Shown here piece after piece: positions 14,543 to 39,709 of a DNA stretch of 64,000 bases. The DNA comes from Psychrobacter sp. ANT_WB68 (lineage in GTDB: Bacteria > Pseudomonadota > Gammaproteobacteria > Pseudomonadales > Moraxellaceae), in assembly GCF_008369115.1 (NCBI RefSeq), contig NZ_VOAZ01000001.1, forward strand, positions 1,054,001 through 1,118,000. The letters run 5' to 3'. The translations under genes and the position numbers were made by a program. Within the stretch, counting starts at the first letter, position 1. Every line of letters begins with the position of its first letter. The notes below the pieces were generated by a model, which ran no database searches, was not told the origin of the DNA, and saw only the letters and a program-made list of their open reading frames with translations.

Positions 14543-14570
14543 AGCCTTATCTAACGATAGGGCTTTTTTT
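14543..14570 (+). terminator. intrinsic terminator
   Basis: Arms AGCCTTATC / GATAGGGCT (one G-U pair) with a 4-base loop, followed by seven T. It lies directly after the 74-residue gene. Confidence 0.8.
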
Positions 14571-14705
14571 ATGCCTGATTGATTTAGTCACAGTCAGCAC
14601 ATGCCAACGAGAACCCGCTAGCAGATGACGACTGCAACATACGATGAGCTATCAATGACTATCTGATTTGCATGTGATGATGATACGAGTTGATAGCACC
14701 TTTTT

Positions 14706-14739
14706 GCCCGATGCCGGAAATCCGATATCGGGCTTTTTT
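14706..14739 (+). terminator. intrinsic terminator with downstream AAAATTTTGG element
   Basis: Arms GCCCGAT / ATCGGGC (14706-14712, 14727-14733) and six T. AAAATTTTGG at 14745-14754 follows and leads into the next ribosome site. The stretch 14571-14705 shows no gene. Confidence 0.8.
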
Positions 14740-14766
14740 ACATCAAAATTTTGGCAAGGGATTGCT

Positions 14767-14928
14767 ATGTGTGAGCTGACCAACCAACAGGCCTATGATT
14801 ACTATCAAGAGGCGACGATGCCAAGCGGTAAAGACTACTGGCTTAACTTCTTGCGAGATAGAGCAAATAGAGGTGTAGTCGGAGCGCAAGGTTTTGTAGA
14901 TAAGATTGAGTTTTGTGAAAAGAAATAA
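14767..14928 (+). CDS. 53-residue phage protein, unknown
   Basis: ATG at 14767 follows CAAGGGA. The product MCELTNQQAYDYYQEATMPS, then GKDYWLNFLRDRANRGVVGA, is a compact helical protein. Its stop codon is immediately followed by the tRNA-like sequence. No family recognised. Confidence 0.55.
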   Translation: MCELTNQQAYDYYQEATMPSGKDYWLNFLRDRANRGVVGAQGFVDKIEFCEKK

Positions 14929-15003
14929 GTGCCTATAGCGCAGATGGTCACGCACTACACAGGGGGTGTAGTGGTCTGAGTTCGCTTCTCTGTGGGCGCA
15001 CCA
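14929..15003 (+). tRNA. tRNA-like gene, anticodon position GGG (Pro), with CCA
   Basis: A 75-base sequence folds as a cloverleaf. The 7-bp acceptor stem has two G-U pairs, T8 is present, the D arm has 3 bp with A14, G18G19 and A21, the anticodon stem has 5 bp, the variable loop has 4 bases, and the T arm has 4 of 5 bp with TTC. It ends in an encoded ACCA. The anticodon position reads GGG. Departures are A instead of U33 and C instead of A58, and G1-C72, which is not usual for bacterial tRNA-Pro. It may be a degenerate phage tRNA or a tRNA mimic rather than a working decoder. Confidence 0.5.
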
Positions 15004-15021
15004 CATACTAAATAACACTTT

Positions 15022-15052
15022 TGCCCCGCCTTGAATGGTCCGGGCATTTTTT
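15022..15052 (+). terminator. intrinsic terminator, imperfect stem
   Basis: TGCCCCG and CGGGCA arms with an interior mismatch, followed by six T, between the tRNA-like sequence and terminase. Confidence 0.6.
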
Positions 15053-15075
15053 ACACTCGCTGATTGGAGGTGAGC

Positions 15076-15744
15076 ATGTCAAAAGCTAAAACGCTCACGC
15101 CAATGATGCAGATGTTTGTTGATGAATATATCATTGATTTTAATGGTCAAGAGGCAGCAATCAGGGCAGGTTATAGTCCAAAGCGAGCAGCACAGCAAGC
15201 CTATAGACTGGCACAAGATACACGTATCACTGACGCAATTGATGAGGCCATCGCTAACAGACGTAAGCGCATGCACATCACCCAAGACCAAGTGTTAATA
15301 AAATGGTGGGAGATTGCTAACGCTGACTATAACGAGCTGTCTAGTGTGCGCCGTGTTGCTTGTGGATATTGCTACGGCGACACAATAAGCCTCGACGATG
15401 ACGATAACGATAACGACGACAGCCGTGATATAGATCCAACCCGCGACCCCAATCCTGACTGCCAAATGTGTAGGGGTGAAGGTTCGCCACATGTGCATAT
15501 TGCAGATACTACCAAGCTATCACCAGCCGCAAAGCTACTTTACCAAGGTGCCAAAGAAACGAAGTTTGGCATTGAGATACAAACAGCGGACCGAATGAAA
15601 GCTTTGGAGAATGTGGCACGACATTTGGGTATGTTTAAAGATACGGTCAATCATGTGTCGGAAGATGGTTCGATGAAGCCTGTTTTTAATATTGTAGGAG
15701 TGTCGCCCGATGACCACAGCGCATCAGGTGACAGTACCGAATAA
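15076..15744 (+). CDS. terminase small subunit
   Basis: A 222-residue DNA-recognition subunit of the packaging motor. Start at 15076 follows GGAGGTGAGC. The N-terminal Terminase_2 (XtmA-type) HTH is clear: TPMMQMFVDEYI, QEAAIRAGYSPKRAAQQAYR. A middle insert carries CGYCYG (about residues 95-100), an aspartate-rich stretch, and CQMCRGEG (about 134-141), a CxxCxG pair like that of DnaJ zinc fingers. The C-terminus EIQTADRMKALENVARHLGM is typical. It overlaps the large subunit gene by 35 bases. Confidence 0.9.
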   Translation: MSKAKTLTPMMQMFVDEYIIDFNGQEAAIRAGYSPKRAAQQAYRLAQDTRITDAIDEAIANRRKRMHITQDQVLIKWWEIANADYNELSSVRRVACGYCYGDTISLDDDDNDNDDSRDIDPTRDPNPDCQMCRGEGSPHVHIADTTKLSPAAKLLYQGAKETKFGIEIQTADRMKALENVARHLGMFKDTVNHVSEDGSMKPVFNIVGVSPDDHSASGDSTE

Positions 15745-16939
15745 ACTACTACCTGCATTCAGTAATCTGTCGCAAGCTATTTATGACATTATCGTGTGGA
15801 AAGGTGGTCGTGGCGCTGCCAAGTCTCAAGCGTTGGCAGCTATTGGTATCTTGGAGAGTTATATCGATGACGGTGTAATCCTATGTTGCCGTGAAATACA
15901 AAAATCCGTAAGTGATAGTATTTACTCAATGCTAGTTAGTTACATTGAGGATAAGGGATTAAGTAAAGACTTTAAGGTGCTTAATACCTCAATAACAAAT
16001 ATCAAGACAGGCGCTGAGTTCATTTTTGCGGGTCTAAAATCAAATATTACTAGCATTAAATCAATCAACAAACTACGCGTCGTTTTGGTTGATGAGGCTG
16101 AGAACGTATCACAAAATAGCTGGGATATCTTACTGCCAACACCTCGTTATGGCGCTGTACGTATCTATGTAGTATTTAACCCACGTTTTGAAGATGATCC
16201 TACATATCAAGAGTTTGTCGCTAAGAGTGACGAGCGCAAGTTAGTCATTGATATTCAGTACACAGACAATCCGTGGTTTCCTCCTTCACTTGAACGGCAA
16301 AGACAGCGCGATGCTAAAGGCGACGCTGGGCGTTATGCGTGGATATGGAAAGGCAGTTTTCTACAGATTACCGAAGCGAGTATCTTAGCTAAAAAACTCG
16401 TTACTAGAGAATTTGAGGTTGACGAGAGTTACGGCGATCCACTGATCGGTATTGACTGGGGTTTTAGTAATGACCCTAACGCGGTCACTGAGAGCTACGT
16501 AAAAGGTAATACGCTATACATTCGAAATGCTGCTAAAAAGGTAGGTCTTGAGCTTGATGATACTGCCGAGTGGCTGATTAAGCATGTACCTAAAATCAAG
16601 CAATACACCAGCCGAGCCGATAATTCACGACCTGAAACCATCAGTAAGGTTAAGCACGATAAAGACAACCCCATACCACTTATCAAAGGTTGTAAGAAGT
16701 GGAAAGGCTGTGTTGAAGATGGTATCGCTCAACTACAGTCGTTTGATGAAATTGTTATACATCCTGACGCCGAGGACTGTAAAGCTGAATTGACCGCATA
16801 CAGCTTTAAGAAAGATAAGTTTGATGAAATCACAGCGATACCTTTAGACCTTGATAACCATTTTGCAGACAGCTTGCGATACGGCATTGAGCCGCATATT
16901 GGCAGGGGTAAAAAATCCGTCTTTGACGTTGTAGGCTAA
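15710..16939 (+). CDS. terminase large subunit (PBSX type)
   Basis: A 409-residue packaging ATPase and nuclease. The Walker A-like loop is WKGGRGAAKSQ (about 29-39), the Walker B is VVLVDEAENVS (about 124-134) and the C-terminal RNase H-like nuclease begins at IGIDWGFSNDPNAV (about 246-259). Length and motif order match the Terminase_3/XtmB family. The ribosome site GGAG lies within the small-subunit gene. Confidence 0.95.
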   Translation: MTTAHQVTVPNKLLPAFSNLSQAIYDIIVWKGGRGAAKSQALAAIGILESYIDDGVILCCREIQKSVSDSIYSMLVSYIEDKGLSKDFKVLNTSITNIKTGAEFIFAGLKSNITSIKSINKLRVVLVDEAENVSQNSWDILLPTPRYGAVRIYVVFNPRFEDDPTYQEFVAKSDERKLVIDIQYTDNPWFPPSLERQRQRDAKGDAGRYAWIWKGSFLQITEASILAKKLVTREFEVDESYGDPLIGIDWGFSNDPNAVTESYVKGNTLYIRNAAKKVGLELDDTAEWLIKHVPKIKQYTSRADNSRPETISKVKHDKDNPIPLIKGCKKWKGCVEDGIAQLQSFDEIVIHPDAEDCKAELTAYSFKKDKFDEITAIPLDLDNHFADSLRYGIEPHIGRGKKSVFDVVG

Positions 16940-16950
16940 GAGATAACTTT

Positions 16951-18252
16951 ATGCTAAATAAACTAATGAACATTGCTGACAGCACACTGGTTAATCTAGT
17001 GAGCAAGCTTGGCACCAGTAGAGACAAAGCGAGTCATGATACGTTTGCTTGGCATGTGCCTAAAACGACATTTGAGCTTGATAATATATACAAGTCCAAT
17101 GCCACAGCGTCGAAGATTGTCGATAAGCCAGTACAGGACATGATGCGTCAAGGTTATTACTTTGGCGGTATCGCGGGCAAAGAGCTAAAAAAGTTAGATA
17201 CTGAGCTAGACAGGCTTAAACTTGATGTGCATTTAAGCAGAGCTATGCGCTTATCACGATTGCATGGTAAGTCTTACATCTTATTGGCCACTGCTGACAA
17301 CATGGCGCTTAGTACGCCTATCAATACCGCTAAAGGCTTAAGCTACATCACCACACTGTCAGTATCGCAATTAGCTGCCGGTAGTGAGATGCGCCCTGCG
17401 TCAGAGGCGGGCGGTTGTTATGACAAACCTGTCTATTATCGACTACAAAAAGGTATTGGTTCGACTGGTACTGAGATTATCCATCACAGCCGTATCATTG
17501 AGATTAAATGGTCAGATGGTGAAAGCGTATTGCAGCCATTGATAGATGCTGAGCTGATCCGTTTTGCAAGTGTCAATGAAAACGCTGCATCATTAGTCCA
17601 TGAGGCTAAGATTGATATTATCAAAACGCCCGATTTGGCTAATCAGATTCAGCAAAACTCAGAATCCATTATTAAGCGGTTCGCATTGGTCGGTATGCTT
17701 AAGGGCAATAACGGTACAGTGTTATTGGATAAAGAAGAAGATTTTCAAAGTAAGTCCTACAACTTTAGTGGCTTGCCTGATTTGATGCAAGAGTTTGCCA
17801 TTCAGTTATCAGGCGCGGCAGACATACCTTATACGATATTGTTTGGGCGTTCACCATCTGGGCTTAGTGCTACTGGTGAGCATGACTTAAAAAACTACTA
17901 CGACACAGTAGGCAGTTATCAGCGTGATTATCTGCGTCCAGTGTTGCAAAAGCTGCTTAATATGATTGGCGGTTATCTATTGCCTAATGAAGATATTACT
18001 TTGATATTTAGCCCGCTATGGCAGATTGACGAGAAGACGTTGAGCGAGATTGAGAAAAACAATGCTGAGCGTGATATTAAGTATCTTGAAAATGGCATTA
18101 TCACCGAGGCTCATGTGGCTAAGCAGCTTGTCGAGCAAGATACTTATACGGTGATTGATGACGAGCATATCGCGCTGCTAAGCGGTCTTAACTTTAATGC
18201 GGAGCTAGACGATGTTAAACCAGTTAAAGCCGCTAATACAGCAACAGAGTAA
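16951..18252 (+). CDS. portal protein, DUF1073 family
   Basis: A 433-residue portal, the ring through which DNA enters the head. The DUF1073 pattern is evident: FELDNIYKSNATASKIVDKP near the N-terminus, SRLHGKSYILLA, and the central LSGAADIPYTILFGRSPSGL, then SATGEHDLKNYYD. Some relatives carry names from the anti-CBASS nuclease Acb1, but I see no phosphodiesterase H-x-T pairs here. It sits between terminase and the Mu F-like gene as expected. Confidence 0.85.
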   Translation: MLNKLMNIADSTLVNLVSKLGTSRDKASHDTFAWHVPKTTFELDNIYKSNATASKIVDKPVQDMMRQGYYFGGIAGKELKKLDTELDRLKLDVHLSRAMRLSRLHGKSYILLATADNMALSTPINTAKGLSYITTLSVSQLAAGSEMRPASEAGGCYDKPVYYRLQKGIGSTGTEIIHHSRIIEIKWSDGESVLQPLIDAELIRFASVNENAASLVHEAKIDIIKTPDLANQIQQNSESIIKRFALVGMLKGNNGTVLLDKEEDFQSKSYNFSGLPDLMQEFAIQLSGAADIPYTILFGRSPSGLSATGEHDLKNYYDTVGSYQRDYLRPVLQKLLNMIGGYLLPNEDITLIFSPLWQIDEKTLSEIEKNNAERDIKYLENGIITEAHVAKQLVEQDTYTVIDDEHIALLSGLNFNAELDDVKPVKAANTATE

Positions 18253-19042
18253 GCGTAAACGAGGTCGTAAGGCTAAAGCGCGTCCTGTTTATGTCTCACG
18301 TAAGCTAGAGCTTGACTATACAAGGGCATTGCTCTCTATCGTTGATGATATGCACACTGAGACAGTAAAGGCGCTCATGCCATTAATTGAGCAGCCTAGT
18401 GTTGGTGATAGCAAGCGCATAGTAAATGATAGCCTGTTCAGTGACTTTAAGACCGCATTTAGTAAGACAGCTAATACGGTCAAAGCTAAAGTGTCAGGAA
18501 TTGCTAGCGCATTGGCTCAAACAGTGGTGAGCAAGCAAGGTCAAGTCTCAGACGGTCAATTAAGCGCGATGATACTTAGCAAAACAGGTATCGACTTTAG
18601 CGGCTTAATGAGTGATAACGTACTCAAAGAGGCGGTAGATGAAGCGGTAGCGGCTAACATAGCGCTGATTAACTCTATACCACAGCAATATCTCGATAGG
18701 GTAGAACAGGCGGTCATGGCAAGCCTACAAGCAGGTACGCTTAATGCTACCTTAGCCGATGACTTACTAAAGATTGAGGGCGTGACTAAGAGCAGGGCAA
18801 AGCTGATAGCGCGTGACCAGTTAGGCAAGATTAACAGCCGACTGTCACAGATTAGACAGCAATCGCTAGGCATTACACATTACTTTTGGTCAACGAGCCA
18901 TGACGAGCGCGTAAGGGATAGGCATAGACGATGGGATGGTGACAGAATCGCATGGGATACGCCAACAATTGACGGACACCCCGGGCAAGCTATTCAATGC
19001 CGATGCACTGCTATTCCTGATTTGGATTTCTTGATGGAGTAA
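18212..19042 (+). CDS. head morphogenesis protein, Mu gpF-like
   Basis: A 276-residue minor head protein. The C-terminal region has the family's signature: IARDQLGKINSRLSQIRQQS, then TSHDERVRDRHRRWDGD and a final PGQAIQCRCTAIP with the conserved QCRC. The N-terminus is basic. It overlaps the portal gene by 41 bases in another frame and has GGAGC upstream. Members are injected or capsid-associated minor proteins in Mu and SPP1. Confidence 0.85.
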   Translation: MLNQLKPLIQQQSKRKRGRKAKARPVYVSRKLELDYTRALLSIVDDMHTETVKALMPLIEQPSVGDSKRIVNDSLFSDFKTAFSKTANTVKAKVSGIASALAQTVVSKQGQVSDGQLSAMILSKTGIDFSGLMSDNVLKEAVDEAVAANIALINSIPQQYLDRVEQAVMASLQAGTLNATLADDLLKIEGVTKSRAKLIARDQLGKINSRLSQIRQQSLGITHYFWSTSHDERVRDRHRRWDGDRIAWDTPTIDGHPGQAIQCRCTAIPDLDFLME

Positions 19043-19046
19043 TGCC

Positions 19047-19157
19047 ATGAGGTTAATACTGCTGCTGCTCGCTGAGCGCCTACTGATATACATGGACAGA
19101 AAAATCAAAGCTAGTGACGAGCTGTCATCTAGTGAAAACGATAACGAGCCGCCTTAA
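19047..19157 (+). CDS. 36-residue small protein in the head operon
   Basis: ATG at 19047, four bases after the previous stop, with GGAG 7 bases upstream. The product starts MRLILLLLAERLLIYMDRKI and ends with an acidic tail SENDNEPP. The N-terminal helix is amphipathic to hydrophobic. A terminator overlaps the end of the gene. Function unknown. Confidence 0.45.
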   Translation: MRLILLLLAERLLIYMDRKIKASDELSSSENDNEPP

Positions 19158-19172
19158 TTGAGCGGCTTTTTT
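19147..19172 (+). terminator. intrinsic terminator within the head operon
   Basis: Arms AGCCGC / GCGGCT and six T, just after the 36-codon gene and 14 bases before the next start codon. Confidence 0.75.
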
Positions 19173-19185
19173 ATGGGCGCTAATT

Positions 19186-20352
19186 ATGAAAATACGCATT
19201 AATCAAGTCATCGACTTAAAGCCGACAAGCCGTATCAAAACGCCGCAAGGTTTTATGATTTGTAAAGACGTAACGCTCGCTAAGCCAATGGTTAAAGAGT
19301 ATTACGCAGGTGAGCTTGGCATTGTTGACGGCTATGAGGCAACCGACATTATCAATATCTACACGCCGCCTGATGTGCTATTTGGTCAACCAGTGATAGA
19401 CGGCTTTACCGCGTCTGATGTGGTCATGCAACACCCAAAAGGTAATCAGCTAACCAGTGACAATTACAAAGAACACGTTATCGGTATCGCTAAGAATGTG
19501 CGAGCTGATAACGGCTATCTGATTGCTGATTTGACCATCAAGGATAAGTGGGCGATTGAGGCTATCGAATATGAGGATAGTAAGCAAATATCTTTAGGCT
19601 ATGCCGCTGAATTAGATATGACAGCGGGCAGCACTGAGACAGGACAGGCATATCACGGGCAATGGGTAAGCATGGTTGCTGACCATGTTGCTGTTGTCCG
19701 TGAGGGCAGATGCGGCGATGACTGCAAAATAGGCGATAGACAAACAGTAATTAATCCAGAGGCAAAGAGCATGAAAGTAAAAATCGGTAACTTAGAGTTT
19801 GATGTGGGCGATAACACGACGCTTGCACAAGCCATCACAGCGCAAAGCCAAGAGCTTGACGCACTAAAAGGTAGCGAGCTTAAAGTGGGCGACCAAGCGT
19901 TTAGCTTATCTGAGCTGACAGCGACACAAGCGACCATTGATAAATTGGTAGCTGATAATGCGGCACTAACAGAGCTTAGCACTGAGTTAGAAGCTAAGCA
20001 GATCACAACTGAGCAAATCGAATCATTAGTCGCTGACCGTGTGGCAACCATCAGCAATGCCAAAAAGCTAAACGATAAGATTGTGACCGATGGTAAATCA
20101 TCTGAGCAAATCCGCCGCGATGTGATTACCGCAAAAGCTGATGACAACTTAGTCAAGGCTATTGTTGGTGACAGTGTGGTAGATGCTGATCAATCAGCTA
20201 TTGATACGGCGTTCAAGGCATTGCTTGCGACTGCTGATAGTAAGCAAGTCATTGCTGCTGATAGCGCCTTAAACGGTCTAAACGATAAAAACGTAGCCGA
20301 TGGTGTAGAAAAGCCATTTGATAAAACCAAAATGTGGGAAGGAGCTAAATAA
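19186..20352 (+). CDS. DUF2213 protein, putative prohead protease/scaffold
   Basis: A 388-residue protein. Residues about 1-185 match DUF2213: RIKTPQGFMICKDVTLAKPM, EYYAGELG, then LTSDNYKEHVIGIAKNVRAD and SKQISLGYAAELD. The C-terminal half (about 200-330) is a helical alanine-rich coiled region (ELDALKGSELKVGDQAFSLS; AALTELSTELEAKQITTEQI), the usual place of a scaffolding domain fused to a protease. Family members lie before the major capsid gene, as here. Confidence 0.8.
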   Translation: MKIRINQVIDLKPTSRIKTPQGFMICKDVTLAKPMVKEYYAGELGIVDGYEATDIINIYTPPDVLFGQPVIDGFTASDVVMQHPKGNQLTSDNYKEHVIGIAKNVRADNGYLIADLTIKDKWAIEAIEYEDSKQISLGYAAELDMTAGSTETGQAYHGQWVSMVADHVAVVREGRCGDDCKIGDRQTVINPEAKSMKVKIGNLEFDVGDNTTLAQAITAQSQELDALKGSELKVGDQAFSLSELTATQATIDKLVADNAALTELSTELEAKQITTEQIESLVADRVATISNAKKLNDKIVTDGKSSEQIRRDVITAKADDNLVKAIVGDSVVDADQSAIDTAFKALLATADSKQVIAADSALNGLNDKNVADGVEKPFDKTKMWEGAK

Positions 20353-20783
20353 TGACACCATTACTAAAAGGCGATGACGCCATTGCTGTTGCAGGTATGC
20401 GCGTTAAATCAATGCCAGAAGAGGTATTAAGCTTGCCGTTAATGATTGACCCTAGTTATCCAGTGGTCGATGGTTCGGTTGTTTATCTAACTGCTGACAA
20501 AAAAGGCTGCACCACGGTTCAAAACGTAGGCGCTGGTTATGTCGGTATTGTCGTGCTTTATGGTCCAGTTGACAGCTATAAAAAAGGTGATGTTGTGCCA
20601 GTTATGGTTAAAGGTAAAATCTGGTCGCCATCTGTTGCCAAGATTACCGACCTAACTACTGTTGTTGGTGCTACTACTGATGGAAAAATCACAGCGACCG
20701 CCACAGCCGTTGAGGGTATGCGCTTTGCTAGTCCATCGGTAGGCAGCCAAAACCTAACCGTTATTGAAATCTTGGGAGTTTAA
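20352..20783 (+). CDS. capsid cement/decoration-like protein
   Basis: A 143-residue beta-rich protein starting in a TAATG overlap. The layout is that of head-decoration proteins placed between scaffold and major capsid genes: GDDAIAVAGMRVKSMPEEVL, VGIVVLYGPVDSYKKGDVVP, then VMVKGKIWSP. Many such proteins bind the outside of the capsid lattice. Assignment rests on position and on the repeated short beta-strands. Confidence 0.65.
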   Translation: MTPLLKGDDAIAVAGMRVKSMPEEVLSLPLMIDPSYPVVDGSVVYLTADKKGCTTVQNVGAGYVGIVVLYGPVDSYKKGDVVPVMVKGKIWSPSVAKITDLTTVVGATTDGKITATATAVEGMRFASPSVGSQNLTVIEILGV

Positions 20784-20786
20784 AGA

Positions 20787-21773
20787 ATGAATAAATTACA
20801 ACACATGATGCTACGTTTAAAACCCGTAGCAGACCACATCCAAGCCCAAGTTGGCGATGCGTTCAATCTTGAATCGTTAGCGCGTCTAATGGTGCAAGTA
20901 GAAAACATTAACGGCATGACACCGCAGATGGCCGAATTGATGGAGTATGCTAAATATATTCCAGTTAACAACAATATTAGTGCAGTAGTTGGCACATCAC
21001 ACAGCTTGCAACGTAAGCAAGGCGTTGGTGAAGGTCAAGCGTTTAGCGGTACTGGCATGGATATTCCACTTGCCGAAGTCGTATTCGATGAAGTGTCATT
21101 ACCTACCAAGATGGGCGCTATCGGTTATCAGTATTCAATCCATGAGATTGCAACCGCTATGGCTATGGGTATTAATCTTGAAGCTGACAAAATCGCCGCG
21201 GCTCAGATGGGTTTTGAGCGTCACATGAGCAAGGTTGCTTGGAATGGTGAAGCTGCTACAGGTGTTAAGGGTTTCTATAACCAAGATGGCGTTGCGCTAG
21301 ATACTCGAACTCTTGACTTTGCGACTGCACCAGTAGCGGCTATCATGGATTTAATCAACACGATTATTTATGACAGTGCTGATGCGTCTGCGTTCGATAG
21401 CGATGTGGCAATCAACACGGTTATTTTACCGACTACCATTGCGCGTGAGTTGGCAGGTCGTACCGTTTCAGCTACCAATGAAACACCGCTTATCAAGTAC
21501 ATTCGTGAGAATAACGAAGCAGCACTTGAAGGCAAGCAGATTGAAATCACCGCCAATCGCCGTGGTAATGGCGTGGGCACTGCTGCTGCTGACCGTATCG
21601 TATCGTACAACAAAAACCCTAACTGCATTGAGATGCGTATTCCGCAAGAACTACAATTCTTGTCAGCTCAAGCTAAAGGCTTTGATTTATTCGTACCAGG
21701 TTCATACACCTATCAAGGCGTATGGCTCAAACGTGTTGACTCAATGCGTTATTACGATACTAAGAAAACCTAA
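20787..21773 (+). CDS. major capsid protein, DUF2184 family
   Basis: A 328-residue capsid subunit. The DUF2184 pattern is clear: YIPVNNNISAVVGTSHSLQR, MDIPLAEVVFDEVSLPTKMG, GAIGYQYSIHEIATAMAMG, then EAATGVKGFYNQDGV and a final LFVPGSYTYQGVWLKRVDS. The fold should be HK97-like. It directly follows the decoration-like gene with a good ribosome site and is followed by a terminator. Confidence 0.9.
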   Translation: MNKLQHMMLRLKPVADHIQAQVGDAFNLESLARLMVQVENINGMTPQMAELMEYAKYIPVNNNISAVVGTSHSLQRKQGVGEGQAFSGTGMDIPLAEVVFDEVSLPTKMGAIGYQYSIHEIATAMAMGINLEADKIAAAQMGFERHMSKVAWNGEAATGVKGFYNQDGVALDTRTLDFATAPVAAIMDLINTIIYDSADASAFDSDVAINTVILPTTIARELAGRTVSATNETPLIKYIRENNEAALEGKQIEITANRRGNGVGTAAADRIVSYNKNPNCIEMRIPQELQFLSAQAKGFDLFVPGSYTYQGVWLKRVDSMRYYDTKKT

Positions 21774-21787
21774 ACAAAACGATAATT

Positions 21788-21811
21788 AAGCGTCTATTAA
21801 GGCGCTTTTTT
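21788..21811 (+). terminator. intrinsic terminator with AAAATTTGAGG element
   Basis: Arms AAGCGTC / GGCGCTT followed by a T tract. AAAATTTGAGG at 21819-21829 supplies the ribosome site of the next gene. Confidence 0.7.
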
Positions 21812-21837
21812 ATTGTCCAAAATTTGAGGGTAAAGCA

Positions 21838-22041
21838 ATGAGTAAGTTTACATATAACGGTGCTAATCGCTCGTTAAGAGTTGCGGGTGTCTTGTTTGAA
21901 AAAGGCGTTGAAACCGAACTAAACGCTGAGCAATTAAAGGCGTTTAAAGCAGATTCTTTTAGTAAGGCGTTTTTAGATGACAGCACTATCGTTGAATCTA
22001 AAGCAACTGAGAAAGCAGGAGCTAAAAATGACAAAGGTTAA
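21838..22041 (+). CDS. small virion-region protein, paralogue 1
   Basis: A 67-residue protein: MSKFTYNGANRSLRVAGVLF, then EKGVETELNAEQLKAFKADS. It aligns along its length with the next protein (KYVGAHDSYTVADIAFKKGE). Both look like a small beta-barrel/SH3-like fold with a Y-x-G start and a K-A-T-E/T-K tail. Probably a head-completion or connector accessory. Confidence 0.65.
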   Translation: MSKFTYNGANRSLRVAGVLFEKGVETELNAEQLKAFKADSFSKAFLDDSTIVESKATEKAGAKNDKG

Positions 22042-23557: not shown

Positions 23558-23574
23558 TTAAGAGAGAAAATACC

Positions 23575-24339: not shown

Positions 24340-24348
24340 GGATAACTC

Positions 24349-29625: not shown

Positions 29626-29627
29626 AA

Positions 29628-30739: not shown

Positions 30740-30748
30740 AGGCGCTTA

Positions 30749-32608: not shown

Positions 32609-32834
32609 TGGTAACTTATGGCAGCTATTCAAAAACGTCACTGAGCGGGGCGCTAAGCAATTAGCGACTGTCATTGATAGGCAAGGCTCAAACTATACCG
32701 TCACCATGCAAGGTGGCGGTAATACCATCGTACAATCAAGCGCCGCTTACGAGATAGGCAGCAAGGTTTTTATTGCTGACGGTCAAATAGTAAGCGATGC
32801 GCCTAATTTAACTTATGTGGAGATTGAGGTTTAG
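32601..32834 (+). CDS. small OB-fold baseplate protein, GTG start
   Basis: A 77-residue protein; GTG at 32601 follows AAGGAGGTGACAG. The sequence VIDRQGSNYTVTMQGGGNTI, then VGSKVFIADGQIV-like strands, suggests a small five-stranded barrel such as those at the base of phage spikes (gp45/gpV-type). Last gene of the hub group, followed by a strong terminator. Confidence 0.6.
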   Translation: MASGNLWQLFKNVTERGAKQLATVIDRQGSNYTVTMQGGGNTIVQSSAAYEIGSKVFIADGQIVSDAPNLTYVEIEV

Positions 32835-32910
32835 AGCGACACCCCTGTAAGGTTCGCAAGTTTTTGACAATTTAAATATATTGCTCACATACAGTGGGCA
32901 GACAAGCAAA

Positions 32911-32942
32911 AAGCCCATCGGCTGTAACCGGTGGGCTTTTTT
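32911..32942 (+). terminator. strong intrinsic terminator
   Basis: Eleven-base arms AAGCCCATCGG / CCGGTGGGCTT (one G-U) with a 6-base loop and six T. It separates the hub group from the small cassette 32981-34421. Confidence 0.9.
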
Positions 32943-32980
32943 ATTTGAACCCCTAAGCGCAATTTAGGAGAACAACGTAG

Positions 32981-33133
32981 ATGAATTTTAACATAGATTT
33001 AGGTGAATGGGTGGCTAAGATGCTCGACAGATATGAAAGCTCGCGGACAGTGAGAAGATTAATCAACGCATTGGTGTTTATACTATTCTTATTCGTCATG
33101 GGTGGATTTATTCAGTCAATTAGATGGTGGTGA
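32981..33133 (+). CDS. 50-residue single-pass membrane protein
   Basis: ATG at 32981 after TTAGGAG. The product MNFNIDLGEWVAKMLDRYES has a soluble N-terminus and one membrane helix at about 27-46 (LINALVFILFLFVMGGFIQS). No family recognised. First gene of a cassette that sits between two terminators in the tail operon. Confidence 0.6.
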   Translation: MNFNIDLGEWVAKMLDRYESSRTVRRLINALVFILFLFVMGGFIQSIRWW

Positions 33134-33208
33134 AGGACTCGACAGTATTGCTCAAATCTCACCAATCGGTTAAGGTTGGGTAAATATAACTTTATCGAGT
33201 GTTTGGCT

Positions 33209-33781
33209 ATGAAAAAACTGGTAGCGGTAGGATTAGCATTGGCGTTAAGTGCTTGCGGCGGTGGTTATGATGATATGGACGCAGCGCGAGAGGGTATGGG
33301 CGGCATTGGTAGTAATGGCTCGGATAATAATCAGCCCGGCAATCCCGACCAGGAGTCTCTTTGGGAATATAATCAAGTAGGTACATCACGGTTTGCCAAT
33401 ATTAATTCATTGAATACCATCCCCACATCTAATGAGTACAATAACGCGCTCATGACCGTGCAGATACATAATTTTGTGGATAGTCAGGGAGAAGCAAAAG
33501 ACTATCTAAAGATCACAGTCTTGTTTGCCGATACTGATTGCGTGACTAGTTGCCAACTGCGGTATAAGAAGAACGGTAGCACAAGTGGTATTTACCGCGT
33601 CCGCCAAAGCATTAATGGCGTATTTAGCGATAACAGCTTTGCATTAGGAGATATGGAAAAGCTGATAAAGGCGATTAAGTCGTCAGGCAAGGCATCTATT
33701 ACCGTTCCACTTGTTGGATTGCCAGATGCAGAGTTTGAATTTGATTTCTCAGGTTATGACATTAATAGAATGAAGCCTTAA
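33209..33781 (+). CDS. cassette lipoprotein, unknown
   Basis: A 190-residue lipoprotein from the ATG at 33209: MKKLVAVGLALALSACGGGY, cysteine at about 16. A glycine/asparagine-rich linker (GIGSNGSDNNQPGNPD) leads to a beta-rich domain (DYLKITVLFADTDCVTSCQL; SGKASITVPLVGLPDAEFEF). It would be anchored in the outer membrane. An exported lipoprotein inside the tail operon is likely a lysogenic-conversion (moron) gene, possibly for superinfection exclusion. A weak TATAAC box lies 19 bases before the start. Confidence 0.7.
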   Translation: MKKLVAVGLALALSACGGGYDDMDAAREGMGGIGSNGSDNNQPGNPDQESLWEYNQVGTSRFANINSLNTIPTSNEYNNALMTVQIHNFVDSQGEAKDYLKITVLFADTDCVTSCQLRYKKNGSTSGIYRVRQSINGVFSDNSFALGDMEKLIKAIKSSGKASITVPLVGLPDAEFEFDFSGYDINRMKP

Positions 33782-33830
33782 ACTTAATAGTTCTTTTGTG
33801 TTAACTAAATACACCTTTATTAGAGAAATT

Positions 33831-34421
33831 ATGGACATCAAAAAGATAGTAATCATAGCAGCAATAGCACTAATAGTTATTATTGGTTTTAATTACTATA
33901 GCAGCGCACAGTCCGAGAAGGCTCGCGCTGCCCGTATGGCTGAAACAGAGGCTTTACGCGCTAGTATTCCGCAGCCAGTAGCTCAACAGCCTGTTACGGT
34001 TGAAGCGCCTATTGATAGTCAGGCACAAGGTGTGCCTGATTCTGAACTGGCCGCCTCCAATAAAGAGATTGTTAATGCCGCTAACAAAGAAAAACGTGAG
34101 GCGTCAAACAGTAAATATACAGCTAATAAAGAAAGTATTGATGCATCAAAGAAACAGATTTGCGATTCCGTGACTTCTGTTTCAGAAACCGCAATGAAAG
34201 CACGGCTTAACGGCGTACCTATTCAGACAGCCTTAGCGGCGCTTGATTCTTCAAATAATGGCAGCGATGCAGCGGTAAAAATCAATAAGATGTACACTGC
34301 AATAATTACGGATGCTTATCGTCAACCGAACTTTAGTACTGATAAGTACAAAGAAGACGCGATCAGGGAGTTTGCGCTAACCAATTATTTAGCTTGCATT
34401 GATGCGGTGGCTAAGTGGTGA
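33831..34421 (+). CDS. cassette membrane-anchored protein, unknown
   Basis: A 196-residue protein from the ATG at 33831: MDIKKIVIIAAIALIVIIGF forms an N-terminal anchor, then charged helices (SEKARAARMAETEALRASIP; NKEIVNAANKEKREASNSKY). A C-terminal helical domain has two cysteines (QICDSVTSV and YLACIDAV). It is probably periplasmic. It follows the lipoprotein gene and ends before a terminator. No family recognised. Confidence 0.65.
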   Translation: MDIKKIVIIAAIALIVIIGFNYYSSAQSEKARAARMAETEALRASIPQPVAQQPVTVEAPIDSQAQGVPDSELAASNKEIVNAANKEKREASNSKYTANKESIDASKKQICDSVTSVSETAMKARLNGVPIQTALAALDSSNNGSDAAVKINKMYTAIITDAYRQPNFSTDKYKEDAIREFALTNYLACIDAVAKW

Positions 34422-34497
34422 TTTTTTATTGGTAATAACAATATATTTATCAGCAACTTAGTCTTATTTTTTTAGTTTAATGAACTCGAACAAACAC

Positions 34498-34520
34498 ACC
34501 CTCCATTGTGAGGGTTTTTT
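34498..34520 (+). terminator. intrinsic terminator
   Basis: Arms ACCCTC / GAGGGT with six T, between the cassette and the tape measure gene. Confidence 0.8.
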
Positions 34521-34546
34521 ATTGCCCACAGTAAAGCGAGAAGGCT

Positions 34547-37429
34547 ATGGCTGATTTAGATTACATCATCAATTTTGCGTCCGACACTTTAGGGCTTGAT
34601 AGGGCAAACTCCGCTATCGGCAAGGTAGGAGTGGCACTGGCGGCGCTTGGTGTAGGCTTTGCGACATTTAAAGTGGCTGGGTTTTTATCTGATGCAGTAA
34701 AAGGCGCGTCTGATTTTGAGCAGCAACTCGCAACGGTACAAGCGGTGTCTGGTGCAACGGTCGAACAGATGGACCGCATCAAAGAGGCGTCTGTTGATCT
34801 TGGCAAGTCAACACGTTATAACGCTACGCAAGCCGCCGAAGGCTTTGAGATATTAGCCCGTGCAGGTCTTAATACCGAACAAGCACTTGAGACAATTCCG
34901 TCTGTCTTAGCATTGGCGCAAGGTAACGCATTGGGGTTATCGGAAGCAGCAGGTTTTGTTACCAAAGCTGTGCAAGGTATGGGATTGGAGTTTAGCGAAT
35001 CAGCGCGTGTCGCTGACGTACTTGCTAAAGCCTCGGCAAGTGCTAACACTGACGTATCAGGACTAGGTGCTGCATTATCCTACGCTGCGCCAACTGCAAA
35101 CGCGCTAGGGCTTACGTTAGAGGAAACAGCCGCTTATATTGGTAAGTTTGCTGATGCTGGTGTTGATGCCAGTCGAGCGGGTACGGCGCTTAATGGTATC
35201 TTGTCGCAGTTTGGCAATAGCGCCTCAACATTTAAGCGCGAGCTTGCAAATATTGGCATCACAACCAATGATTTTAACGAGGCGATTAGACAGCTTTCAG
35301 AATCGGGCGATAAAGGTCAAAAAGCAATTAATGCGCTTGGCTTAGAAGCAGGCCCAGCATTTAAAGCGCTGCTATCGCAAGGTATGCCCGCACTTGATGA
35401 GCTGACAGAAAAACTAAATAATGCTGGTGGTGCCGCAGCAGAACAAGCTGAGATCATGAATAATACATGGCAAGGCGCGTTTGCAAGTTTAGATAGTGTT
35501 TGGCAGTCGGTCAAAGATACGATAGGCGAGCCGATACTAGAGCCGCTATCACAAGCATTTAAGGATATTGGGGCGGTAATCGGTGAGCTGATAGACTCAG
35601 GTAAGATTGAGCAGCTAGGCGCTAGTATTGGAGAGGTGTTCACTGAGGCAACGGTCTATATTGTTGATTTTATCAAAAACATAGATATGGCCGCCGTCAT
35701 TGATAAGGTTGGTAGTAGTTTAGAGAGCTTGCGCGGTATCAGTGTCGCGGCTAATGGTGCGTTCCAAGCGCTGAGTATTGCGGCTAATGGTTTAAAAGCC
35801 GGTTTTCTCGCTATCGGCGTAGCGATGTCGATGGTTGTCACTGTCTTTGCCGAAATTATTAAACTGGTAGTTGACGGAGGTAGTAGTGTCGCTAAGTTTT
35901 TCGGCATATCTACAGAGGCGGCAGATAGGCTATCAGCAGGGCTAGGCGGTGCTCTAGCGGCTGCCGAGGCTTTTAGAGATTATGGTACTGATGGGATTGC
36001 TAAAGCTGGCATAAGTATTAACAAGTCGTTTGATTCTATAGCGGGTAAGGCAGGCGAAACAGCCAATGCTATGGTTACGGCGGGCAATAAAACCGTAGAC
36101 GCCTTTGGTGATATTGTAAGGGCGGCAGAAGATGCTAGTAAAGAGACAGGCGACTCAACTAATCAGATACGCAAAAACGTCTCAGAGTTAATTGATGGTA
36201 TGGCAGCCCCAGAACAGTTTGCCGCCTTGCTTGAGAATATCATTGAGACAGGCCAAGAGGCAGTTGTTGGTTCTGAGTTGATAAATCGCCTGATTGCTGG
36301 TACGGGTGATTTAGGCGGCAAATCGCAAGAGGCTGTTGAAAAAGCCAAAGTTTCTATTAAAGAAATGGGCACGGAAGCTGAACAGCAAGCCGAGAAAGTG
36401 CGCGCAGCTATCGAGGGTACATTTTCAGCCCTTAATATTGATGTCCAGCAAAACTTAAATGGCGTTAATACCAAGACGCAGCAGACGTTTGATTTGATTG
36501 CTAACGGCGCTAAGTCAGTCGCAGAAAGCACGTATAACGCTACTGAGAAAGCCAAGTTGCTATCGGCACTATTTGCCGAGGGTTTAAACGCTGCTAAAAC
36601 CAAAGAAGAGTTTGACGCACTCAATGAAGTCACTAAGCATTATGGCTTGTCATCAGTTATCACAGCTGAGCAGCAAAAGATATTGCAAGCAGGTATGAAA
36701 GGTGGCGCTGAGGCGGCCGAACTTGCGTCTGATGCGATAAACAAGCATACATTGGCGCTAGATGGCAATGCTAACGTAGCTAATACAAACACAGGTGCCA
36801 TCAGAGAAAATACGGCTGCTAGAAAAGAACAGTCAACCGCCACATGGAACGCTAAGTTTGCAACCGATGAAAATATTAAGAGTGAAAGCGCCAGCCTCGC
36901 GGTAATGCAACGAGTAACAGAGGGTATTAAAGATAAGATTGGCGCCTTAAACACTCTAAGCGGCACAGCAGATAGCACTGATGAATCTTATCAAAAGCTT
37001 ATGAGGAGCATGGGCTTTGTAGATGGTTTCAAATGGTCGAGCATGGCAGATTATGCTCGTGATATGAATCGCGTCAGTGCTGCTGTTGACAAACAGGCTG
37101 AGAGTTTTTCGGCTAACAATATGAAATATAGACGAAGTAAAAGTGGCAGCTCTACTAGCAATACAACGTCAGCGCCAAGCCAAGAGTTAATCAATGAGGT
37201 GGCGCGATTAAAGGCAGCGGACAAGGACGGTTCTATCAATAATCGCTTTAATCCCTCAGGTGGGAACACGGCGGCAGCTTCTCAGAATAACGCACCAGTA
37301 AAAACCATAGTAGTAGAGCTAAGGTCAAACACTGGCACAGTCAATGCAACTATACCGGAATCGCAAGAAGCGCTGTTTAATGCGTTCGTTAAGCAGCTAC
37401 AAGAAAGTAAGGCGTTATCAGGTCAATAG
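34547..37429 (+). CDS. tail tape measure protein
   Basis: A 960-residue protein that sets tail length and passes through the tail tube. The TP901-type core lies at about 60-260: DFEQQLATVQAVSGATVEQM, LGKSTRYNATQAAEGFEILA, then GLTLEETAAYIGKFADAGVD. A hydrophobic stretch at about 418-445 (GFLAIGVAMSMVVTVFAEII) is typical. The rest is alanine-rich helix. It lies after the hub genes rather than between tube and hub, which is not the common siphovirus order. Confidence 0.92.
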   Translation: MADLDYIINFASDTLGLDRANSAIGKVGVALAALGVGFATFKVAGFLSDAVKGASDFEQQLATVQAVSGATVEQMDRIKEASVDLGKSTRYNATQAAEGFEILARAGLNTEQALETIPSVLALAQGNALGLSEAAGFVTKAVQGMGLEFSESARVADVLAKASASANTDVSGLGAALSYAAPTANALGLTLEETAAYIGKFADAGVDASRAGTALNGILSQFGNSASTFKRELANIGITTNDFNEAIRQLSESGDKGQKAINALGLEAGPAFKALLSQGMPALDELTEKLNNAGGAAAEQAEIMNNTWQGAFASLDSVWQSVKDTIGEPILEPLSQAFKDIGAVIGELIDSGKIEQLGASIGEVFTEATVYIVDFIKNIDMAAVIDKVGSSLESLRGISVAANGAFQALSIAANGLKAGFLAIGVAMSMVVTVFAEIIKLVVDGGSSVAKFFGISTEAADRLSAGLGGALAAAEAFRDYGTDGIAKAGISINKSFDSIAGKAGETANAMVTAGNKTVDAFGDIVRAAEDASKETGDSTNQIRKNVSELIDGMAAPEQFAALLENIIETGQEAVVGSELINRLIAGTGDLGGKSQEAVEKAKVSIKEMGTEAEQQAEKVRAAIEGTFSALNIDVQQNLNGVNTKTQQTFDLIANGAKSVAESTYNATEKAKLLSALFAEGLNAAKTKEEFDALNEVTKHYGLSSVITAEQQKILQAGMKGGAEAAELASDAINKHTLALDGNANVANTNTGAIRENTAARKEQSTATWNAKFATDENIKSESASLAVMQRVTEGIKDKIGALNTLSGTADSTDESYQKLMRSMGFVDGFKWSSMADYARDMNRVSAAVDKQAESFSANNMKYRRSKSGSSTSNTTSAPSQELINEVARLKAADKDGSINNRFNPSGGNTAAASQNNAPVKTIVVELRSNTGTVNATIPESQEALFNAFVKQLQESKALSGQ

Positions 37430-37452
37430 CCACTCTTTTGAGTGGTTTTTTT
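37430..37452 (+). terminator. intrinsic terminator with AAATTTTGAGG element
   Basis: Arms CCACTC / GAGTGG with a 4-base loop and seven T. AAATTTTGAGGAGG follows at 37459-37472 and serves as ribosome site for the holin-like gene. Confidence 0.8.
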
Positions 37453-37476
37453 ATGTTCAAATTTTGAGGAGGCGTG

Positions 37477-38091
37477 ATGCCGCATAATATTGCAGCTTTT
37501 AAGACAGCACAATTACTCACGCTGTCTGCTGCTGGTACTGCCGCGAGCGCAGCAGGTATCAGCGCACAATTAGGGCAGACCCATGCCTTTTTTTACTTAC
37601 AGCTGCCGTTGTGGATTTTTTTTACCGCAATGGTGGTCTTGACTTTTCTAGGCGCTTTTATCTCACTGACAACAGACTATATGCGCGCGCGAGGTACAAC
37701 AGCAAGCAAGTTGACAACGGCAATCGCTGTGGGCTTGGTTGTATCGTTTGTGGTTCTACCGACAATTATTCGTGAGCCAAGCGTGGGTTTAATGATGGTG
37801 ACATCGTTTTTTGGTGGCCTGTCCGGCACAATTTTAACGTATGTCTGTATGCGACTGCTTAATAATAAAGAATTGCAAGATGCGGTTATTGACCTTATTG
37901 CACAGCGCGCTGTTAAATTTTTAGGGGTTGCTTTGGATTTAATTACTGAGCACGCAACAAAACTGCTCACCATAGTTTTGACAAGCGTAGTCGCGTCATT
38001 TGTCGTACTGCCGCAATTGAAAGCCGAGCTCAACGCCAGCTTAGTTTCAAACCCTGACTATCAGGAGGTGTTAAATGTTAAGCACGGTTAA
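37477..38091 (+). CDS. multi-pass membrane protein, holin candidate
   Basis: A 204-residue protein with four or five membrane segments, at about 40-62 (LWIFFTAMVVLTFLGAFISL), 80-100 (IAVGLVVSFVVLPTIIREPS), 105-128 (MMVTSFFGGLSGTILTYVCM) and 160-182 (LLTIVLTSVVASFVVLPQLK). GAGGAGG precedes the ATG; a GTG one codon earlier is possible. Position before the muramidase suggests a holin or antiholin. It is longer than most holins. Confidence 0.6.
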   Translation: MPHNIAAFKTAQLLTLSAAGTAASAAGISAQLGQTHAFFYLQLPLWIFFTAMVVLTFLGAFISLTTDYMRARGTTASKLTTAIAVGLVVSFVVLPTIIREPSVGLMMVTSFFGGLSGTILTYVCMRLLNNKELQDAVIDLIAQRAVKFLGVALDLITEHATKLLTIVLTSVVASFVVLPQLKAELNASLVSNPDYQEVLNVKHG

Positions 38092-38368
38092 TTATGCTTT
38101 GCCAATGCTAGGGTTGCTAACATGTTTAATTGTCATGTTGACACGCAAGGTAAATACTCAAGGGTCTATATGTATCGCTAAATTAAACCTATATTCGTTC
38201 GGTTGGTTGCTACTTTTATGGGCTGATTGGGGCACGGGACACATACCGGTTTTTGCAACCGTGCTCTTTAGATTGATTATGCTCATCAATAACTTACTTT
38301 ATATCAAACAGTTAACAATGCCTAAGTCCGTATCTTTTAAAGCGCTATGGCGATATAGAACTAAATAA
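38075..38368 (+). CDS. small membrane protein, holin candidate
   Basis: A 97-residue protein overlapping the previous gene by 17 bases. Three membrane segments can be seen: 6-22, 38-52 (YSFGWLLLLWADWGTGHI) and 55-80 (FATVLFRLIMLINNLLYIKQ). Together with the preceding gene it may form a holin pair; its size and topology fit class I holins better. Confidence 0.6.
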   Translation: MLSTVNYALPMLGLLTCLIVMLTRKVNTQGSICIAKLNLYSFGWLLLLWADWGTGHIPVFATVLFRLIMLINNLLYIKQLTMPKSVSFKALWRYRTK

Positions 38369-38374
38369 TAATAC

Positions 38375-38398
38375 AGCCCTTTAATTAGGGCTTTTTTT
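38375..38398 (+). terminator. intrinsic terminator
   Basis: Arms AGCCCT / AGGGCT and seven T, between holin candidates and the muramidase. Confidence 0.8.
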
Positions 38399-38408
38399 GG
38401 GGTGGAAT

Positions 38409-39194
38409 ATGGCGAGAACACACGTAATACAAGCGCAAACAGCACTAGCAGCAGCAGGTTATTACTCAGATAAGATTGATGGTGACTTTGGCGGCGGCTC
38501 ATTGCGAGCAGTGCAGAATCTAATTGATAACACGGGCAAAGCAGTTGATATATTAGCTAATAGCGATGCCAAGCCCGACAACGTTTTACTAACACCTAAA
38601 TCTAATCCACCTCGGGTAACGAATGATGATATTCGAGCGGCGGCGGCAGCAATCAATGTCGAAGCGGCAATGATTAAAGCGTTATCCGACATTGAATCAC
38701 CAAAGGGCGGTTTTAATAAAGACGGTACACCAAAGATATTATTTGAGCGCCACAAGTATTATCAAGCGCTAACTAAGATTGATTGGATAACTAAGCGCAA
38801 TGAAATGGTGGCGAAATACCCTGATGTTTGCCACAAATCAAGCGGTGCGTATAATGAGCGCCCACAGTATGACAAGTTAAGAATAGCGGCAAACCTTAAT
38901 TGGGAAGCAGCGCACGAATCAGCATCATGGGGCTTTGCTCAGGTGATGGGCTTTAACTGGCAGTCGCTAGGTTATGAATCAATACGCGACTTTGTGACCA
39001 AGATGTATGAATCAGAGGGGCAGCAACTCATAGCGGCGTGTCGATACATTCAGGTTAATAAGCTAGATGCAGCGTTACGCGCTAAGAATTGGGCGGCGTT
39101 TGCCCGTGGTTATAACGGTCAGGATTATCAGCGCAACGACTACGACAATAAGTTAGCAGCAGCTTATGCCAAAGCTAAGAGCGAGGGCTGGTAA
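38409..39194 (+). CDS. endolysin: N-acetylmuramidase with peptidoglycan-binding domain
   Basis: A 261-residue lysis enzyme that cuts peptidoglycan. ATG at 38409 follows GGGGTGG. The N-terminal 60 residues form a PG_binding-like module (QAQTALAAAGYYSDKIDGDF, GGGSLRAVQNL). Residues about 75-258 match the N-acetylmuramidase (DUF3380) family: AAMIKALSDIESPKGGF with the catalytic glutamate, ILFERHKYYQALT, SWGFAQVMGFNWQSLGY and the final FARGYNGQDYQRNDYDNKLA. No signal peptide, so holin-dependent release is expected. Confidence 0.9.
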   Translation: MARTHVIQAQTALAAAGYYSDKIDGDFGGGSLRAVQNLIDNTGKAVDILANSDAKPDNVLLTPKSNPPRVTNDDIRAAAAAINVEAAMIKALSDIESPKGGFNKDGTPKILFERHKYYQALTKIDWITKRNEMVAKYPDVCHKSSGAYNERPQYDKLRIAANLNWEAAHESASWGFAQVMGFNWQSLGYESIRDFVTKMYESEGQQLIAACRYIQVNKLDAALRAKNWAAFARGYNGQDYQRNDYDNKLAAAYAKAKSEGW

Positions 39195-39668
39195 ATGAAT
39201 CTAATCTTACTCGCCCGATATTGGAAGTATATCGTCATTGGCGTTTTATCGATGTTGCTAGTATTTACCGCTTATTTATTGCGGCAGTCACATAGCACGA
39301 TTGCGCTAATGAAAAGCGATCACGAATTACAACTAACCACGCTTAAAGCAAGCTATGTTGAAACGGCGCGTGATATTGAGAGGCAGGCTTATGAACAGAC
39401 TATACAAGCAGTTAATGAAGCTAAAAAACGTGAGCAGGTTATCATTGCTGATGCTGCTAGCGCCCGTGATTCTGTTGCCAGCTTGTCAAAGACTATCGAC
39501 AAACTCAGTGATACAGCCGCCGCCGATGCCAACTTTAGAATTGAGTATTCCAGAACAACAGGAAACTTACTCAAAGAGTGCTCAACTCAATATATTGGAA
39601 TGGCAGAAACGGCTGACCGAATTAGCAACAGCTTACGAGCAATCGAGCAAGCCAATAAAAGAAAGTGA
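39195..39668 (+). CDS. Rz-like inner-membrane spanin
   Basis: A 157-residue i-spanin starting right after the muramidase stop. One N-terminal membrane anchor (about 12-30, YIVIGVLSMLLVFTAYLL) is followed by a long periplasmic coiled coil (LKASYVETARDIERQAYEQT, QAVNEAKKREQVIIADAAS). Two cysteines are lacking except C129. It should pair with the lipoprotein encoded in its own second frame to fuse inner and outer membranes at lysis. Confidence 0.85.
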   Translation: MNLILLARYWKYIVIGVLSMLLVFTAYLLRQSHSTIALMKSDHELQLTTLKASYVETARDIERQAYEQTIQAVNEAKKREQVIIADAASARDSVASLSKTIDKLSDTAAADANFRIEYSRTTGNLLKECSTQYIGMAETADRISNSLRAIEQANKRK

Positions 39669-39672
39669 GTAA
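39391..39672 (+). CDS. Rz1-like outer-membrane spanin nested in Rz
   Basis: A 93-residue lipoprotein in the +1 frame, fully overlapping the Rz-like gene except for its last bases. The signal MNRLYKQLMKLKNVSRLSLL leads to the lipobox LLPAC (Cys about 32). It is followed by the proline-rich stretch IQPPPMPTLELSIPEQQ and a helix WQKRLTELATAYEQSS. Lipobox plus prolines plus nested frame is the hallmark of Rz1. A start at 39415 is also possible. Confidence 0.85.
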   Translation: MNRLYKQLMKLKNVSRLSLLMLLAPVILLPACQRLSTNSVIQPPPMPTLELSIPEQQETYSKSAQLNILEWQKRLTELATAYEQSSKPIKESE

Positions 39673-39676
39673 TAAA

Positions 39677-39709
39677 AGCCCGTCCTTAATTGGGCGGCTT
39701 ATTTTTTTT
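39677..39709 (+). terminator. terminator at the end of the late operon
   Basis: Arms AAGCCCGTCC and GGGCGGCTT around a short loop and then eight T. The element TTAAAATTTGAGG follows at 39712-39724, overlapping the integrase stop on the other strand. Confidence 0.75.

Follow-up and report, generated by a model that had tools for sequence, protein, structure and literature searches.

A terminator-rich late operon in a Psychrobacter prophage and a putative Q-type antiterminator encoded ahead of its promoter

The prophage and the terminators of its late operon

We analysed a window of 64,000 nucleotides from Psychrobacter sp. ANT_WB68 (contig NZ_VOAZ01000001.1, positions 1,054,001 to 1,118,000 of the forward strand), which contains a temperate phage integrated in the chromosome of a 3.12 Mb genome. 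The subject of this study is the late operon of this prophage, which is punctuated by intrinsic terminators, together with the promoter in front of it and an upstream gene that we model as a Q-type antiterminator. The early genes, including CII-like and antirepressor genes, reach about 14.5 kb. The late genes, from terminase to spanin, extend from 15064 to 39668 on the plus strand according to the list of open reading frames (ORFs) and family matches, and the integrase gene follows them on the opposite strand. Among 50,697 phage records the sole near match is the Psychrobacter phage vB_PmaS_Y8A, which aligns with 18% of the query at 80.1% identity. When the genus was searched with the major capsid protein, no more than 3 of 105 genomes, this one included, proved to have a related prophage.

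To count the terminators we used a strict finder (dG <= -8, U-score >= 3.3) over 14543-39709. It reports 11 plus-strand terminators, compared with a mean of 0.32 and a maximum of 3 in 60 dinucleotide shuffles. Ten of the 11 are intergenic, in a region where only 1,453 of 25,167 bases (5.8%) are non-coding; the eleventh, at 29899 inside a gene, is probably a chance hit. The minus strand has one strict terminator, the palindrome at 32912. A permissive scan of both strands gives a smaller excess (22 vs 16.0 +/- 3.8 and 22 vs 12.0 +/- 3.7 in two scans), because it accepts short stems anywhere. An Rfam search of the window gave nothing useful.

An earlier note on this DNA had listed terminators at 19147, 21788, 24793, 32911, 34498, 37430, 38375 and 39677, and each of these lies at most 1 base from a hairpin with a T-tract in the finder output. 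In operon order they are found before the protease gene (19146-19172), after the major capsid gene (21788-21811), before the gene at 24835 (24791-24815), at the start of a cargo slot (32912-32942, usable on both strands), before the tape measure gene (34498-34520), overlapping the tape measure stop codon (37428-37452), before the endolysin gene (38375-38398) and at the end of the operon (39678-39709, for which the strength comparison given below was also used), all on the plus strand. Between the terminators at 32912 and 34498, the cargo slot (32835-34546) contains genes whose role is unknown; in Y8A the terminators at the matching place enclose other genes, Arc-like and KilA-N.

To see whether the positions are kept, 27 late genes of the window were mapped by tblastn onto 12 related phages and prophages, and a terminator was sought between the neighbours of each junction, counting a junction only if both neighbours lay within one fetched stretch. 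At four terminator-bearing junctions (19146, 21788, 24791 and 32912) a terminator is present in 15/15 comparisons (3/3, 1/1, 7/7 and 4/4, respectively), with gaps of 61 to 1,557 bp in which further genes may sit. At the remaining junctions, some with gaps above 1 kb, it is present in 0/40. One junction is excepted from this count, that between the major tail protein and the gene at 24349, where a terminator is present in six of seven relatives but absent from the window. G503 and G504 have no mapped late gene in common and make no contribution to the junction counts. According to its annotation, and outside the junction count, Y8A also has terminators at places matching 34498, 37428, 38375 and 39678. 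The mapped proteins are 27-93% identical and the terminator stems differ between relatives, therefore the position of the terminators has been kept while their sequence was turned over. The late operons of Y8A, pOW20-A and vB_AbaSI_5 are likewise rich in terminators.

The distance between each hairpin and the upstream stop codon bears on whether translation could shield the hairpins. If ribosomes reaching the stop codon blocked them, the terminators would act only when translation fails, as a control of polarity. Five hairpins start 14, 22, -2, 6 and 9 nt from the stop (21788, 24791, 37428, 38375 and 39678), and E. coli terminators a few bases behind a gene are almost fully repressed, as stated in PMC4824070. 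However, the hairpins at 34498, 32912 and 19146 lie 76, 77 and 103 nt behind the stop, although a small ORF may reach into the last of these, and the terminators in the leader would need another explanation. We consider shielding by ribosomes an unlikely account of the operon.

A second possibility is that each terminator is followed by its own promoter, so that the modules are transcribed independently. Scans for sigma-70-type sites found 31 promoter-like sites against 43.5 +/- 6.4 expected (both strands, 14000-33999), in agreement with the earlier observation of few promoters between the modules, and 33 against 27.9 +/- 5.4 in 32000-45000. The earlier note had named promoters downstream of each terminator as the finding that would overturn its proposal. 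Checked on the sequence only, a sigma-70-type site scoring 9/12 or better would put its transcription start between the terminator and the next gene at 0/9 junctions. At seven junctions only 11-26 nt separate the end of the T-tract from the next listed start, and at 38375 about 10 nt lie between the T-tract and the ATG at 38409, taken here as the start. Room for a promoter is available after 32912, where 233 nt are free up to the next listed start in the cargo slot, and a promoter-like site is found at 32853, just ahead of this terminator. Taken together, a promoter behind each terminator appears very improbable.

The late promoter, its leader and the gene upstream

The promoter scan and the alignment of relatives identify a late promoter, TTGACC-18-TATATT, at 14191-14220 on the plus strand; with its surroundings it occurs once within the window. 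Neither this conserved promoter, nor the antiterminator gene, nor the shared tail described below was part of the earlier note. In the alignment the spacer (14197-14214) carries a conserved CAGTTRRTG, a candidate binding site for the antiterminator. Immediately behind the -10 follows a -10-like element, TACACT (14224-14229), at about -3 to +3 of the predicted start. It is a candidate sigma pause by the cis rule given in PMC9371919. By reading, a hexamer of this kind stands right after the -10 in 12/12 aligned rows, with A at position 2 and T at position 6.

The leader contains four plus-strand terminators, and those that the earlier note had placed before terminase are thus present. The first (14265-14298, seen in the alignment of relatives) has a 12-base loop and starts at about +38. 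The finder reports those at 14542-14570 and 14706-14739, the latter kept in several relatives, and a weaker one at 15023-15052 was seen by eye and is in no finder list. A start of the first terminator between +34 and +41 was found by script in 7/12 rows (the window, L112, L114, L116, L120, L121 and L123); in L113 and L127 a hairpin near +34 is visible by eye, which the script skipped in favour of a stronger hairpin further on. Between two of its terminators the leader also contains a tRNA-Pro (GGG) gene, at 14929-15003.

The promoter is linked to the gene at 12993-13562. A similar promoter is present in 13 of the 14 loci that have a relative of the protein encoded there (the window, L112-L123 and L127), in L119 in a weaker form. 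When viral contigs were scanned with the promoter pattern, five were found and the antiterminator gene was upstream in 5/5; the pattern was built from loci carrying the gene, and four of the five contigs were already known, only L127 being new. In L114, L116, L118 and L127 the 3' end of the antiterminator gene reaches up to or into the promoter. In the window, two plus-strand ORFs without a known family (13564-14183, from the ORF list and family searches) lie between gene and promoter.

This stretch shows some further details. Variable ORFs between the Q-like gene and the promoter are present in the window (13564-14214) and also in L113, L115 and L123, marking an insertion spot, and at about 14185-14214 of the window codons resembling the end of the L118 gene are still readable beside the promoter. 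In L112 (591-1151) codon 58 of the Q-like gene is an in-frame stop, yet promoter and leader terminator are retained.

The gene at 12993-13562 (plus strand, 189 amino acids) matches PHROG 5656, which is listed with function unknown. The protein has no Pfam or NCBIfam match, and a relative gave one weak NCBIfam hit (E 0.002), far below the cut-off. The PF06530 Phage_antitermQ profile matches neither this protein nor that of 13564-13962; it does match the Q proteins of Y8A and pOW20-A, and weakly that of vB_AbaSI_5. The terminators are therefore not bound to one Q family, as relatives with a PF06530 Q also have terminator-rich late operons. The ORF at 13564-13962, beside the promoter, was also tried as Q. 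It has no PHROG, Pfam or NCBIfam match, one viral relative and no similarity to the Q of Y8A, and its match to the Q of pOW20-A is a 6-residue chance one, so it was dropped in favour of 12993-13562.

The protein of 12993-13562 was picked as the Q candidate by gene position, ahead of any fold search. Its predicted model has a mean predicted local distance difference test score (pLDDT) of 76.6 and matches AlpA in the AlpA-loaded complex with Z 8.4 and a root-mean-square deviation (rmsd) of 3.8 over 131 residues. When the model was compared with Foldseek's best 476 PDB chains (VIA-align 2), AlpA alone was above Z 5, the runner-up reaching 4.4. For the L119 member, which is 60% identical, the model (mean pLDDT 78.9) matches lambda Q in the Q-loading complex with Z 9.5 and an rmsd of 2.9 over 115 residues, and against 834 chains lambda Q alone was above Z 5 (runner-up 4.5). 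The two models are not independent, because both alignments hold the same 12 sequences; L112, with the stop codon in its gene, and L121, near-identical to L120, were left out of the protein alignments. In each fold search the one hit to stand out was a Q-type antiterminator, and the protein had been selected for its place before a PR'-like promoter.

In the predicted models the match covers a Q-like fold, an N-terminal ring segment and a C-terminal helix-turn-helix, and the ring part is the least certain. Residues 26-40, where the model is least certain, adjoin the well conserved residues 31-50 (column identity ~0.9). For AlpA, PMC9371919 describes a ring within the RNA exit channel that is built by an N-terminal segment, one loop of which is poorly resolved. 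The PHROG 5656 gene models as a Q-type antiterminator that is not named as such in the family libraries searched. No paper on the role of this protein family was found in open-licence full texts, the PHROG name not being among the search terms.

A tail shared by phage terminators

Behind four of the 12 window terminators (21788, 24791, 37428 and 39678) we found, at a near-fixed distance, the tail TGCCTAAAATTTGA or a close form of it; the other eight are without it. The tail scan places these elements at 21814-21827 (12/14), 24818-24831 (14/14), 37454-37467 (10/14) and 39709-39722 (TGCTTAAAATTTGA), all on the plus strand. The scoring script rates the tail of 39678 low because the T-run takes its first base. 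Sequences of the AAAATTT type bend DNA.

Two exact copies of the 14-mer are present in the own genome, one at 24818 of the window and one in the terminator of the signal recognition particle (SRP, 4.5S) RNA gene, at 41115. The 3' end of this gene (Rfam RF00169) is the integration site of the phage, and the host RNA lies about 1 kb to the left of the window. The attachment core of 25 bp is repeated at 41095-41119, with the other copy near 1,053,045 of the own-genome contig, and it takes in the T-run of the SRP RNA gene's terminator. That the tail is the attachment core repeated along the phage was rejected, as the left part of the window has no copy of the tail and the attachment core is the 25 bp at the SRP RNA gene. 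A 20-base form of the tail is present in 56/105 genomes of the genus, mostly in single copy, and in 1/397 other genomes across the phylum. In 27 of 30 fetched genus loci the end of the SRP RNA precedes it. The SRP RNA terminator of many of these genomes (L051-L080) has the tail TTTTTTTTGCCTAAAATTTGA, and the sequences diverge directly after it.

In viral contigs a 21-base form of the tail gave 48 matches in 47 stretches, corresponding to 28 distinct contexts. The finder reports a hairpin before the tail in 25/28 of these, against 1/6 for matches to control patterns, and the stems are unrelated, in stretches of 28 to 57% guanine plus cytosine. Base composition as the origin of the tail was rejected, since two control patterns gave 3 stretches each, vs 47 for the tail. 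Of ten proteins tested next to viral copies, eight have matches among phage tail, endolysin or PHROG 6128 families, and the other two are without any match. In the window, PHROG 6128, a 1200-residue family, is represented by two neighbouring ORFs (24835-28381) that correspond to its first and second half, while L027 has a single ORF of 1213 amino acids. In the viral contigs L004, L016 and L029 the tail is continuous with a -35 box, and a -10 follows after 17-18 bp, a fusion of terminator, tail and promoter.

We also scored 175 non-redundant terminators from 11 phages and prophages and 155 host terminators from about 420 kb of host DNA. A tail of at least 10/14 is found behind 45/175 and 2/155, respectively, and with shuffled tails in 0.26%. 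The count on the 175 is partly circular, because the consensus was first seen in this window and its phages are also related; the scan of viral contigs is the freer test. A host-wide terminator feature was rejected on the same host set, where TGCCTA is found in 0/155. The idea that the tail is only a ribosome-binding device is weakened, as it also stands behind terminators without a following gene start (21/113 at 10/14 or better, vs 24/62 with one, in a crude sorting).

The tail would sit just ahead of the polymerase at the point of release, and an effect on termination is the plainest guess. It is possible, though we hold it to be doubtful, that the tail is a true part of phage terminators, a downstream DNA element that tunes termination or its reversal by antiterminators, rare behind host terminators and common to unrelated phages with unrelated stems. 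If functional, it would add a sequence element beyond the usual picture of intrinsic termination by hairpin and U-tract. No paper on the tail was found among open-licence full texts; the texts containing its letters were not relevant by title.

A proposed late-gene switch and the closest known systems

Very probably the locus is the Q-type late-gene switch of a temperate phage, with the terminators as targets of the antiterminator. In this switch the host sigma-70 promoter at 14191-14220 would feed a single operon up to 39668. Without the antiterminator, late transcripts would end in the leader, at the first hairpin around +38 or at one of the three more before terminase, and the terminators at about eight module boundaries would halt stray transcription within the operon in the lysogen. 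The early operon would make the 12993-13562 protein, which would bind the promoter spacer. With the polymerase pausing at the -10-like element, the bound protein could load onto it and enter the RNA exit channel, where hairpins would be barred, leaving the polymerase resistant to terminators for 25 kb. The whole row of terminators would thus be unlocked at once by the Q-like protein.

That the polymerase is made terminator-resistant over 25 kb, one of the two readings offered in the earlier note, is strongly supported by the anatomy of the locus: the predicted Q-type fold, the conserved late promoter, the cis elements and the leader terminators. What we infer from it is that the protein binds DNA, that the polymerase pauses, that antitermination takes place and that the internal terminators lock the operon in the lysogen. 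For Tn916 and pLS20, a role of internal terminators as insulators against stray transcription has been suggested in PMC11658703.

The strength of the terminators is of interest here, as a different reading lets each terminator leak a set fraction, so that their strengths and the gene order set the protein ratios without a resistant polymerase. The median minimum free energy is -16.4 for end-of-operon terminators (n=9) and -11.0 for internal ones (n=38; one-sided Mann-Whitney p = 0.0001), both sets being chosen by hand from the finder lists, with the remaining finder hits unused. At the end of the operon, a terminator of greater strength would help to halt a resistant polymerase. The terminator behind the major capsid gene ranks among the weaker (-8.4). 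Graded readthrough would be in keeping with terminators placed behind this gene and on either side of the tape measure gene, and PMC9045158 describes internal terminators that set ratios in ABC transporter operons of Clostridia. However, about twelve successive terminators would leave the endolysin little transcript, and a Q-like gene and the layout of a promoter plus leader terminator are present. The kept positions with rewritten stems and the stronger end terminators are somewhat easier to reconcile with a lock closed by a final stop than with a gradient. Graded readthrough as the explanation is improbable in our judgement, and it could operate jointly with the Q-type switch.

Several observations weigh against the Q-type switch. 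The candidate protein has no sequence similarity to solved structures in a protein search, and a search with the family profile gave one hit, a reductase, at E 2.1. Foldseek alone, against the PDB and viral models, finds no match at E <= 0.001, and according to the tool's own warning Z values such as those above can occur by chance among helical proteins. L122 has the antiterminator gene without such a promoter. The candidate binding motif CAGTTRRTG is exact in the spacer of only 8/12 aligned rows, and in L115, L117 and L118 a short ORF comes before the first terminator, which does not start at about +35. Finally, of the nine end-of-operon terminators only one is weaker than that of the window (-12.8).

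If the Q-type switch is correct, PHROG 5656 gains a likely function, together with a predicted DNA site and start point. It would tie AlpA-like regulators to temperate phages, in agreement with the proposal in PMC7969949 that the Alp system came from a prophage. About twelve terminators under one antiterminator would also form a natural series suited to measuring the processivity of antitermination.

The system is of a known kind, to which the protein family and its promoter seem to add a new member. As in lambda, where Q acts with PR'-tR' (also 21Q and 82Q), the gene stands ahead of the late promoter, which is closely followed by a -10-like element and a terminator, and the predicted fold of the L119 member matches lambda Q. 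Unlike lambda Q, the window protein has no PF06530 match and no detectable sequence similarity to solved structures; the many internal terminators of the late operon may be a further difference. The predicted fold of the window protein itself matches AlpA of the Pseudomonas aeruginosa alp lysis system. According to PMC7969949 and PMC9371919, AlpA loads at an element between the -35 and the -10, requires a -10-like sequence and bypasses a terminator beginning 54 nt past the transcription start. AlpA targets chromosomal lysis and pyocin-region genes, whereas the target proposed here is a 25-kb phage late operon, and its element, GGGACG, differs from the spacer motif of the window.

The PF06530 Q proteins of Y8A, pOW20-A and, by a weak match, vB_AbaSI_5 are encoded in the same region before the late genes, ahead of similarly terminator-rich operons, but they belong to a protein family other than that of the window protein. 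Tn916 with canT and pLS20 with conAn are also similar, in that a long operon of a mobile element has internal terminators that are read through by means of an antiterminator encoded by the element, as described in PMC11658703. According to the same source canT is an element made of RNA and conAn consists of a protein together with RNA, while in the window the antiterminator would be a protein of predicted Q fold that is loaded at the promoter.

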